A stretch of 64,000 bases of DNA, taken from positions 186,001 through 250,000 of the forward strand of contig JAIDHX010000036.1 of the NCBI GenBank assembly GCA_029053015.1, in the 5' to 3' direction. Shown piece after piece: positions 38,126 through 43,358 of this stretch. Position 1 is the first letter of the stretch, and the number at the start of each line of letters is the position of its first letter. The notes beneath the pieces were generated by a model. The model made no database searches. It was given only the letters and a program-made list of their open reading frames with translations, and was not told the origin of the DNA. Both the position numbers and the translations under genes were made by a program. This stretch comes from Lachnospiraceae bacterium. Its GTDB lineage: Bacteria > Bacillota > Clostridia > Lachnospirales > Lachnospiraceae.

Positions 38126-38836
38126 ATGCTGGCAGCGGGACTGCTGTTTGGAAGTTTTATATGCTTTGTGCTGCCCATCGGGGGCGCAGTCATGCTGATG
38201 CGCAGAAAGAAAGGCGCAGGAAAAGCGTTTCTTTTCGGGATGCTGGCGTTCATCGTAAGCCAGCCATTACTCCGCCTGCCGCTTTTGCAGATTGTGCTGC
38301 CGCAGTACGCATGGTTTGCCGTTTTGCAGCTAAACCCGTGGCGTTACGGCTTGTTTCTGGGGCTGACGGCAGGATTGTTTGAAGAAACTGCAAGGTGGAT
38401 AGCTATCCGCTTTTTCTTCAAAGAAAAAACAAATATAGAGCACGGTCTGGCTTTCGGACTGGGACACGGCGGTGTGGAAGCCATGCTGTTTGTGGGTCTT
38501 CAGTTTGTATATATGCTGTTTTTGATGATTATGGGCAAAGGAGCACTGCTCCCCGTCGGCGCAGGAACGGTTTTTGTCAGCAGCCTGGAACGACTGTCCG
38601 CCATCCTGTTTCACATAGGAGCGTCCCTTCTGGTGATGTATGGCGTCAGAAGAAAAAAAGCAAGATATCTTGTTGCTGCCATTTTACTTCACACACTGCT
38701 CGATGCTCCAATCGTCATTCTGCAGGCAGTGTTTGGAGTGGGCGTAGCGGGAATTGAGGCATATGCTGCGCTATTAGCAGTCATTACGCTGGTTGCAGGA
38801 ATTTGGTGCTATCAAACGCCTAAAAAGTATGAATAG
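38126..38836 (+). CDS. YhfC-like intramembrane metalloprotease-family protein
   Basis: GLFEETARWIA, LGHGGVEA, LLHTLLDAP. Confidence 0.8.
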   Translation: MLAAGLLFGSFICFVLPIGGAVMLMRRKKGAGKAFLFGMLAFIVSQPLLRLPLLQIVLPQYAWFAVLQLNPWRYGLFLGLTAGLFEETARWIAIRFFFKEKTNIEHGLAFGLGHGGVEAMLFVGLQFVYMLFLMIMGKGALLPVGAGTVFVSSLERLSAILFHIGASLLVMYGVRRKKARYLVAAILLHTLLDAPIVILQAVFGVGVAGIEAYAALLAVITLVAGIWCYQTPKKYE

Positions 38837-39042
38837 GTGATTGCGAAACGCAGTGGCTATGCTGTTGTCATTGTGCATATTGTACATTCCAACGCAGACT
38901 CGCTCTCGCTCCAAGCTTACCGTAGCGGTACGTAAGCTGCCAAAGGACGGCAGCTAAGTACCGACGGTAAGCAAAGGTCTGCTTATGGAATGTACAATAT
39001 GCACAATTCGCAACCGGCAAGTATGAGTTTTGCAATTACCTA
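38834..39042. repeat. MITE-like element copy A, TIR-bounded with TA ends
   Basis: TAGGTGATTGCGAAAC (38834-38849) ... GTTTTGCAATTACCTA (39027-39042). Confidence 0.7.
38870..39007 (+). repeat. Structured hairpin core A: 22-bp perfect outer arms with nested inner stems
   Basis: ATTGTGCATATTGTACATTCCA (38870-38891) / TGGAATGTACAATATGCACAAT (38986-39007); inner GCAGAC/GTCTGC, GCTTACCG/CGGTAAGC, CGGTAC/GTACCG, AGCTGCC/GGCAGCT. Confidence 0.95.
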
Positions 39043-39053
39043 AAGAATATATA

Positions 39054-39372
39054 TAGCTGATTGCGAAATACTTTCTGCAAGTGCGGAAGTGTTTAAAGTA
39101 GGCAAAAAACGTCTCCAAAGCAGTGGCAAGTCCCCTTATTTTGTCTATATGGAATATTTCCTGTGGCTTGCAAGGAAGTCTCGTCTTTGCCTGTTTCGAA
39201 TTGTGTATATGGTATATTCCATAAGCAGACCCTTGCCAGTCGTCGGTACTTAGCTGCCGTCCTTTGGCAGCTTATGTACCGCTACGGCTGGCTCGGAGCG
39301 AGAGCGTGTCTGCGTTGGAATATACCATATACACAATGACACTTGCCGCATAACGAATTTCGCAATCACTTA
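39054..39372. repeat. MITE-like element copy B, TIR-bounded with TA ends
   Basis: TAGCTGATTGCGAAAT (39054-39069) ... ATTTCGCAATCACTTA (39357-39372). Confidence 0.7.
39200..39337 (-). repeat. Structured hairpin core B, inverted copy of core A with compensatory changes
   Basis: ATTGTGTATATGGTATATTCCA (39200-39221) / TGGAATATACCATATACACAAT (39316-39337); interior is near-identical in reverse complement to core A. Confidence 0.95.
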
Positions 39373-39404: not shown

Positions 39405-39833
39405 ATGAAAGAAAACGTAAAAAGAATTGTAAACAGAAGTTTCGCAGCAATACTGGCGGCAGCGCTGCTTCTTACGCTTGCAGCCTGCAGCGGCACAAAA
39501 CTCCCCGATGGTTTTGACGAAAAAACCGTAAAAGAGGCTGCCACAAAATTTCTCGACTATCTGACTGCCGGGGAGTATGACAGCGGCATGGATATGATGA
39601 GTGAAGTCATGACGGCAGCCTTGTCGAAGGAGGATTTGACTGCCATTATGGAAGATTTAGACAGACAGGCGGGAGCCTTCAAGGAGTATAAAAGCATTGC
39701 AGTGGTGGGGCAGACCTCTCAGGGCGTCGAATACGCGACAGCGGTTGTCGTGGCTTCCTATGAAAAGCGGAATGTGACATACACAGTGGTGTTCAATATG
39801 GATATGGAAATTGACGGCTTCTATTTGAGATAG
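39405..39833 (+). CDS. Small lipoprotein, DUF3887-like
   Basis: Lipobox LTLAACSG; FDEKTVKEAATKFLDYLTAGEYDSGMDMMS. Confidence 0.75.
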   Translation: MKENVKRIVNRSFAAILAAALLLTLAACSGTKLPDGFDEKTVKEAATKFLDYLTAGEYDSGMDMMSEVMTAALSKEDLTAIMEDLDRQAGAFKEYKSIAVVGQTSQGVEYATAVVVASYEKRNVTYTVVFNMDMEIDGFYLR

Positions 39834-41282: not shown

Positions 41283-41402
41283 GATACAATCCAATGATAA
41301 GTGTTGTCAGAACTGCCGATTGTATGATATACTGAAACATATATTTTGTATATGTCACGTGTTTCTTATAAAAAACGCTGGCAGGGAAGGTTGAGGAAGC
41401 GT

Positions 41403-43358
41403 ATGGCAAAAGAAAAATCGTCGTTGGTTTTTACGAACGACAAATGTATTGGATGTAATAAATGTATCAGCGTGTGCAGCTGCACGGGGGCATGTGTATC
41501 CCATGAGGTAGACGGGGCAAACAGGATTGATGTGGATGGGAATAGATGTGTTGCCTGCGGAGCCTGCTTTGATGTATGCGAGCATGGTGCCAGAGAGTAT
41601 AGTGACGATACGGAGCGTTTTTTTGAGGATTTGAAGCGCGGCGAGAAAATCTCGATTCTGATTGCGCCCGCCTTTAAAGCAAATTATCCGCAGGACTATG
41701 AGCGGGTGCTCGGCGGGTTGAAACAGTTGGGTGTAAACCGTATGATAAGCGTATCCTTTGGCGCCGATATCACCACATGGGGATACTTGAATTATGTACA
41801 GAAATATAATTTCCTGGGCGGCATCTCACAGCCTTGTCCGGCGGTGGTCGGCTATATCGAGCGCAACTTGCCGGAGCTTCTGCCGAAGCTGTTTCCTGTA
41901 CAGAGTCCCATGATGTGTGCGGCTATCTATGCGAGAAAGGAAATGGGCGTTACAGACAAGCTTGCGTTTATCAGTCCCTGTATCGCGAAAAAGATGGAAA
42001 TTGACGACCCCAACAACAAAGGGGTGGTTACGTACAATGTGACTTTCAACCACTTGATGAAGTATGTAAAGGAAAATCAGGTTTACGGAGCACTCCAGTC
42101 CGATGAAATTGAATATGGATTAGGTTCCATCTATCCCATGCCGGGCGGTCTCAAGGAGAATGTTTACTGGTTCTTGGGAGAGAGTGTGTTTATCCGCCAG
42201 ATAGAAGGCGAAAAGCACATGTATCATTATCTGGAGCACAATAAAAATAAGATTGCGGCAAATAAAACCAAGTATCTCTTTATCGATGCGTTGAACTGTT
42301 CTTCCGGCTGTATTTACGGAACGGGCTGTGATCCTGAGAAATCCGGCAATGACGACGTGTTGGAAGCGCTTCTGGAAATCAGGGAGTCTTCCAAAAAAGC
42401 AGGTTCAAAAAGCGCATGGGCGAAGAAACTTTCACCTGAAAAGCGCCTGAAAAAGCTGAACAGCCAGTTTAAAAACCTGAAGTTGGAGGATTATCTGCGC
42501 AGCTATACGGACCGTTCTGCTGAGTGTGCTTACAAGCATCCGACGGAAGCAGAGCGTGATGCCATCTTTAAGGAGATGAACAAAAATACGACGGCAGAGC
42601 GTCATATCAACTGCTCCTGCTGTGGCTATGACTCTTGTGAGCAGATGGCGGACGCTATTTTCAATGGCTTCAATCAAAAGACAAATTGTATTTATTACAT
42701 AAAGAAAGAAGTGGAAGAGCAGAAGGCGACGGCGGAGGAACTGGCTGACCAGTTGACGGCAGACAAGCAGCTCATTCAGGAACAGAAGGAATTGATACTC
42801 CAGACGCTTAAGGAAATCAACTCGGAATTTGATACTTTATATCGGTCGGTTGACGATATGGCAAAGGGAAATGAAAACAATGCGTCGGACAGCGCTGAGA
42901 TTTCGGCGGATATCAAGGATGTGACAGCATTCTGTGAATCCCTGTCGCGTTCTATGGACGAAATCAGCGATTTCCTGCGGGAACTTTCACAAAATAATGA
43001 TGAGGTTGTCAGCATTGCTTCGCAGACGAATCTGCTTGCGCTCAACGCTAATATTGAAGCGGCGCGCGCAGGTGAGGCGGGCAGAGGATTTGCCGTTGTA
43101 GCGGATGAAATCAACAAACTTGCCAGCGAATCAAGGGAAACTGCGACCCGCAGCAATTCCAGCCAGGACAAAATCATGAACTCAGTCAGCAGTATTATTG
43201 CGGATACGCGAAAGCTTTTGGATACCGTTGACGGTGTCAACGGAAGGACCCAGACGCTTGCGGCTGCGGCACAGGAGATTTCCGCTTCTGTCAGCATGGT
43301 TCTGGGTACGGCAAATAAAATCAGGGAGAAGTTGAAGGTGCTTGGAACGCAATACTAA
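41403..43358 (+). CDS. Fusion: ferredoxin + [FeFe]-hydrogenase-like H-domain + 4Fe-4S domain + methyl-accepting signalling domain
   Basis: [13 protein letters not shown] / [77 protein letters not shown]. Confidence 0.92.

Follow-up and report, generated by a model that had tools for sequence, protein, structure and literature searches.

The window, that is, the whole stretch of 64,000 nucleotides of Lachnospiraceae DNA that was analysed, contains a gene for a YhfC-family protein (38126-38836) and, further downstream, a gene for a DUF3887 protein with its start codon at 39405, and two inverted hairpins, here called elements A and B, occupy the intergenic gap between them. Element A begins at the TAG stop codon of the YhfC-family gene and element B ends 32 bases before the start codon of the DUF3887 gene. 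In addition, a third hairpin unit (unit1) lies between A and B. A scan of the region found no promoter-like or terminator-like site. Further downstream (41346-43358, + strand), the window encodes a predicted protein combining ferredoxin domains, an iron-only hydrogenase large-subunit domain and a chemotaxis-type MCP signalling domain, which is situated next to a two-component system and looks like a redox- or hydrogen-sensing hydrogenase. The features of the hairpin locus are the following:

38834-38836 (+), TAG stop codon of the upstream YhfC-family gene, which is also the first three bases of element A
38834-39042 (-), element A, full hairpin unit from terminal TAGGTGATTGCGAAAC to GTTTTGCAATTACCTA (given for the + strand), with the conserved predicted fold on the - strand; its ends are shared with the other class I copies of this genome
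38870-38891 (no strand assigned), variable arm of A, one side (22 bp, perfect)
38883-38994 (-), covariance-model core of A (124.2 bits)
38902-38909 (-), GNRA mini-hairpin of A (GC-GAGA-GC on the - strand)
38935-38955 (-), apical hairpin of A, AGCTGCC-GTCCTTT-GGCAGCT on the - strand, with the 7-nt GUNYUUU-type loop
38977-38982 (-), junction stem P2, 5' strand GCAGAC of A, whose partner strand is 38894-38899
38986-39007 (no strand assigned), variable arm of A, other side
39043-39053 (no strand assigned), AT-rich spacer between A and the central unit, only weakly similar to the left flank of A, so that a target duplication is not shown
39054-39180 (no strand assigned, boundaries approximate), central palindromic unit (unit1) without the conserved core, which recurs beside many copies in this genome and in the relative G017
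39180-39372 (+), element B, second hairpin unit, with the predicted fold on the + strand; right end TTTCGCAATCACTTA, left terminal repeat degenerate
39200-39221 (no strand assigned), variable arm of B, 5' side (22 bp, perfect)
39213-39324 (+), covariance-model core of B (125.7 bits)
39298-39305 (+), GNRA mini-hairpin of B (GC-GAGA-GC)
39316-39337 (no strand assigned), variable arm of B, 3' side

Two inverted hairpins with matched substitutions

The sequence-only reading of this locus had described two inverted copies of a nested hairpin whose arms differ by compensatory substitutions, and this observation is correct to the base. The arms 38870-38891/38986-39007 and 39200-39221/39316-39337 are perfect 22-bp inverted repeats, and the stretches 38866-39027 and 39180-39341 are 86% reverse-complementary. 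The arms of the two elements differ at three positions (C to T, T to G, and C to T), each of which is matched on the other arm, and the inner stem GCTTACCG/CGGTAAGC becomes GCCAGCCG/CGACTGGC. What had been taken for a C-A mismatch in B is a G.U wobble when B is read on the + strand, the strand on which the conserved fold lies. The predicted structures are far beyond chance, about 13 standard deviations below dinucleotide shuffles, with -115.4 kcal/mol against a shuffled mean of -58.4 (z -13.3) for A and -84.3 against -38.7 (z -12.7) for the core of B. Both cores match a covariance model built from 32 diverse sequences at 124-126 bits (E about 1e-35), with no other match in the window, although both were in the training set of the model and such scores are therefore expected. 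The same arrangement of A, unit1 and B is present at the orthologous place in G017, at about 93% identity over the locus.

A repeat family of Lachnospiraceae and its predicted fold

The two hairpins are members of a large repeat family. A DNA search with element A alone found 40 good matches in this genome. The sequence-only reading had proposed a covariance-model search of the host and its relatives as a test of its view, and such a search with the 32-sequence model found at least 143 copies in this genome with E below 1e-8; as only 150 of 673 candidates were scored, the true number may be higher. These counts come from searches and from retrieved stretches of the genome. Copies are found in 132 of 298 genomes of the same bacterial family, identified as Lachnospiraceae, covering 126 of 280 genera (about 45%), many with at least ten copies, and copy numbers vary from none to at least 143 within the family. 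Among 393 genomes of the class, a second model built from the family-wide set found only one, weak, match outside the family, at a contig edge. Two weaker candidates from the first model share the GTATTTT loop and a GNRA-like hairpin and may be remote homologues. Weak possible homologues outside the family, at loci L096 and L104 (family f90) and L095 (family f39), keep the GTATTTT loop or the GGTACTTAG core and a GNRA-like hairpin, but contamination is not excluded. An exact-pattern scan returned mostly Lachnospiraceae records. Several records in that scan are labelled Gastranaerophilales, Bacteroides or plain "bacterium"; they come from one sample series, and those titled Gastranaerophilales or Bacteroides (L145, L159, L168, L192, and others) are likely mislabelled or contaminated bins.

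The sequence-only reading had not recognized the element as a known RNA or repeat family, and that it is not a known RNA family holds for Rfam 15. No hit reached the gathering threshold, and at E<=1 only sub-threshold plant miRNA models appeared, the best being a plant miRNA hairpin at 29.5 against 76 bits. No pattern match was found in 2.9 million viral contigs, only two short weak pieces were found in phage records, and no plasmid match was found. The papers searched describe no relative. As far as Rfam 15 and these papers show, this is a real, large and previously uncatalogued family.

Every copy has a conserved apical domain, which is predicted to form a three-way junction with a GNRA loop, a strongly conserved internal helix and usually a GUNYUUU-type end loop. 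In the sense orientation (the - strand for A, the + strand for B), the core consists of the arm, a short internal loop, GCAGAC, a variable stem P3, CGUC-GGUAC-UUAG, the apical hairpin with a 7-nt loop usually of the form GUNYUUU, CUUA(N)-GUACC-GCUACG, the other side of P3, a two-base-pair GC-GNRA-GC hairpin, GUCUGC and the other arm. Many single positions are invariant across genera while the stems are rewritten. Of 186 copies in which the small loop could be parsed, 182 are GNRA with six different sequences (GAGA 75, GAAA 66, GCAA 17, GGAA 11, GGGA 7, and GCGA 6) and none has a pyrimidine at the third position, whereas its stem is GC/GC in 168 and GU/AC in 17. In both G017 (L134) and another genome of the family, G006 (taken to be Lachnospiraceae bacterium GAM79; L333-L345), the UUAG side of the apical internal loop can be replaced by an extra hairpin at about the same place (e.g., CAAAGTCATGCTTGCATGACTTG), turning the tip into a further junction.

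Paired change in the stems and signs of mobility

In one set of copies 94.3% of cells are paired and the covariation score is 0.567 against 0.158 when shuffled, whereas in an independent family-wide set the values are 90.8% and 0.529 against 0.138. These alignments were fitted to the model, which leans toward pairing, but sliding the partner by 1 to 3 columns drops pairing to 27-43%; as the sequences share ancestry, the shuffles overstate significance. G.U pairs are scarce, at about 2.5% of cells, and many columns switch directly between Watson-Crick types. In the in-register part of the arms of 198 distinct copies, G.U outnumbers A.C by 90:26 in the nine pairs next to the core and by 57:30 in the next nine, but the ratio is 15:16 further out, so that the sense strand is favored near the core and the distal arm shows no strand preference. 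A cruder test, which included out-of-register, unpaired tails, gave G.U 246 to A.C 288 and no strand difference.

At 20 orthologous sites shared with G017, 19 arm columns changed on both sides and all 19 remain paired, against 2.4 expected if the sides changed independently. The double changes sit in blocks at 7 of the 20 sites, and the apical hairpin type was swapped at 7 of 20. Mosaic copies with mismatched P3 strands also occur. This looks like replacement of tracts between copies, with template switching, for which multi-base compensatory change has been published (PMC8794818), as a second likely route. However, G017 is a metagenome assembly with Ns and repeats are where assemblies fail, so the swaps may partly be assembly errors and their rate is an upper bound.

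Copies are about 200-640 bp long and nearly all intergenic, with 1 of 77 inside an ORF. Most analyzed copies lie between co-directional genes, as inferred from ORFs, and there they show no orientation preference relative to transcription, with 24 sense to 27 antisense here and 28 to 28 across the family. Close neighbors are -/+ in 29 of 32 cases, so that their 5' ends face each other. Terminal inverted repeats bound the elements, with AGGTRATTGCGAAAC in this genome, TAAATGGAAAGTTAGT in G006 and GGGTGTCAAAAGCCC in a further genome, G487. In G006 a 490-bp element with the ends TAAATGGAAAGTTAGT/ACTAACTTTCCATTTA has many copies at unrelated places, most of them 94-99% identical to the reference, several at what appears to be the exact end of an upstream reading frame where the repeat supplies the TAA. 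Other multi-hairpin mosaic elements of G006 (L352-L355) have the same TAAATGGAAAGTTAG ends but lack the conserved core and carry a different conserved hairpin (GGTGGGAGCTTGCTCACAC type). G487 has 274-bp copies with GGGTGTCAAAAGCCC ends, and the genome G440 has head-to-tail tandem arrays of the hairpin unit (L370-L373) with periods of about 187, 164, and 137 bp, in L370 inside one pair of terminal repeats. The same core therefore sits in mosaics with different terminal repeats.

No transposase was found inside or beside any copy inspected, including the G006 and G487 loci. Between inverted pairs 0.6-5 kb apart only ordinary genes such as cca, panC, purM, purN, and one for a DUF2334-like deacetylase were seen, named by eye from their sequences and not by a family search. 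In the one family-level transposase search, for IS630-type DDE_3 (PF13358), no member was found in this genome or in G017, and the single one in G006 does not have the ends of the element. Also, the end sequence of the element has no exact match in this genome away from the non-coding elements. With regard to a target duplication, the ends are flanked by TA in most G006 copies, but TA may belong to the repeat; a duplication of about 13 bp suspected by eye at several copies was not consistent and was dropped; and no clean empty site was found, since the one apparent empty site, in G017, keeps an element end and looks more like a deletion scar. In G032 (L042), one copy with the ends CAATGTCATTAAGTTTAG appears inserted inside the GNRA hairpin region of another copy, with a possible 10-bp duplication ACATAGAGCG.

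A non-autonomous mobile hairpin as the favored reading

With reasonable confidence, A and B are best read as two copies of a non-autonomous, MITE/BOX-like mobile hairpin that has multiplied in Lachnospiraceae chromosomes, which makes it an unusually clear case of a mobile element keeping its fold. The analysis itself demonstrates the high copy number, the intergenic placement, the terminal inverted repeats, the lack of a transposase gene in any of the copies inspected, the recent near-identical amplification in some genomes, the conserved apical fold with one polarity and the arms that change together. In contrast, it is inferred that an enzyme supplied in trans moves the element and recognizes the folded sense strand, mainly because the alternative, a cis-acting host RNA, predicts an orientation bias that is absent; such recognition would explain why the three-way junction, GNRA loop and bulges persist although most of the stem is free to change. 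It is likewise inferred that the paired substitutions arise in tracts, by exchange (gene conversion) between the many copies and by template switching within the palindrome, while selection removes copies whose sense strand no longer folds. The diverse terminal repeats make one mobilizing enzyme for all unlikely, and the lack of a mobilizing transposase in the search for DDE_3 and of a demonstrated target duplication speaks against this reading. The sequence-only reading had proposed selection or a replication mechanism that preserves the fold, and this interpretation is partly supported. It is right in outline and both parts have evidence, selection from the conserved junction, the GNRA rule and the preference for G.U over A.C near the core, and a mechanism from whole-tract replacement of both arms at orthologous sites. 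What it missed is that these are two of at least 143 copies of a family-wide, apparently mobile element, so that the comparison of A with B is between old paralogous copies and not within one evolving locus. Nothing points to a discrete host RNA gene.

Several known systems are comparable, although the element is not shown to have every defining feature of BOX, REP or attC. BOX elements of Streptococcus pneumoniae (with RUP and SPRITE; PMC3049150) are likewise high-copy intergenic mosaic repeats of a Gram-positive host, form a stem-loop if transcribed and are modular with a repeatable central module, which can be compared with the tandem arrays in G440. This resemblance is of architecture only, no sequence relation being found by Rfam, and the present family has a branched GNRA-containing apical domain, arms that differ between copies yet stay paired, and a spread over a whole bacterial family. 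Bacterial MITEs (reviewed in PMC10969869) are also short, non-coding, multi-copy and intergenic with terminal inverted repeats, but here neither a target duplication nor a partner IS with the same ends was found within the searches described above, and a conserved folded core is shared by elements with unrelated terminal repeats. REP/BIME sequences with TnpA-REP (PMC8266576) share the palindromic character, the high copy number and the inverted pairs of fixed polarity, whereas the present elements are much longer, possess terminal inverted repeats and, by inspection of the aligned copies, show no GTAG/GGAG motif at the hairpin base. Integron attC sites (PMC6393395) are similar in being a folded single strand with polarity set by unpaired bases and a sequence free to vary; the copies here lie among ordinary chromosomal genes, where no cassettes, integrase or attC core sites were seen, although without a dedicated search.

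A more specific version of the favored reading, which is possible but tentative, is that the sense DNA strand folds during replication and is cut and moved by a hairpin-recognizing enzyme, as for REP sequences with TnpA-REP or integron attC sites. The polarized fold with bulges on a turnover-prone palindrome, the inverted pairs with fixed polarity, the lack of coupling to transcription and the scarcity of G.U pairs point to DNA, whereas the strict purine at the third loop position is the RNA GNRA rule and points to RNA, and terminal inverted repeats on both sides are more typical of DDE transposition. A host-beneficial structured RNA in transcripts (an mRNA stabilizer, attenuator or riboswitch-like domain), selected copy by copy, seems unlikely. 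The RNA-like motifs (GNRA, 7-nt loop, and junction), the sense-strand G.U bias near the core and the location in tight intergenic gaps, such as that between a stop codon and a start about 32 nt downstream here, would favor it, but it is already weakened by the equal frequency of sense and antisense copies within co-directional genes, and there is no promoter or terminator signal here, copies lie by unrelated genes and copy numbers vary widely within the family. Equally doubtful as a full account is that the covariation is purely mutational, with template switching and gene conversion (PMC8794818) keeping any old palindrome perfect and no fold being selected. Most double changes have no G.U intermediate, the distal arm shows no strand bias and double changes come in blocks; this view remains likely for the distal arms, but it is disfavored for the core, as it does not explain the near-invariance of the apical domain while stems turn over, the GNRA rule on one strand, or G.U favored 3.5:1 next to the core. 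A bidirectional terminator or gene-end element placed by selection at 3' ends of genes is very unlikely, since, although several copies start exactly at the upstream stop codon, there is no run of T after the stem and no terminator-like site here, most analyzed copies lie between co-directional genes and many lie just upstream of starts. A bolder and improbable hypothesis, which the data do not exclude, is that the apical domain is an RNA acting in trans in the mobility of the element itself (a ribozyme, or an RNA partner of an unidentified enzyme), in which case the element would be a bacterial MITE whose transmissible unit is a structured RNA module able to ride on different terminal repeats across a whole bacterial family.

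Non-autonomous mobile hairpin repeats as such are already known; what is new here is an uncatalogued family with an unusually elaborate and conserved folded core and a clear natural record of paired change. The hundreds of copies and the orthologous sites form an unusually rich natural data set to separate the two causes of compensatory change in hairpins, selection on the fold and templated repair, which is an open question for RNA evolution. A family-wide repeat with 140 or more copies in one Lachnospiraceae genome and no Rfam entry is a large gap in the annotation of these bacteria, and if the conserved domain proves to be the recognition signal of a mobility enzyme, it would reveal a new way of recognizing mobile DNA.
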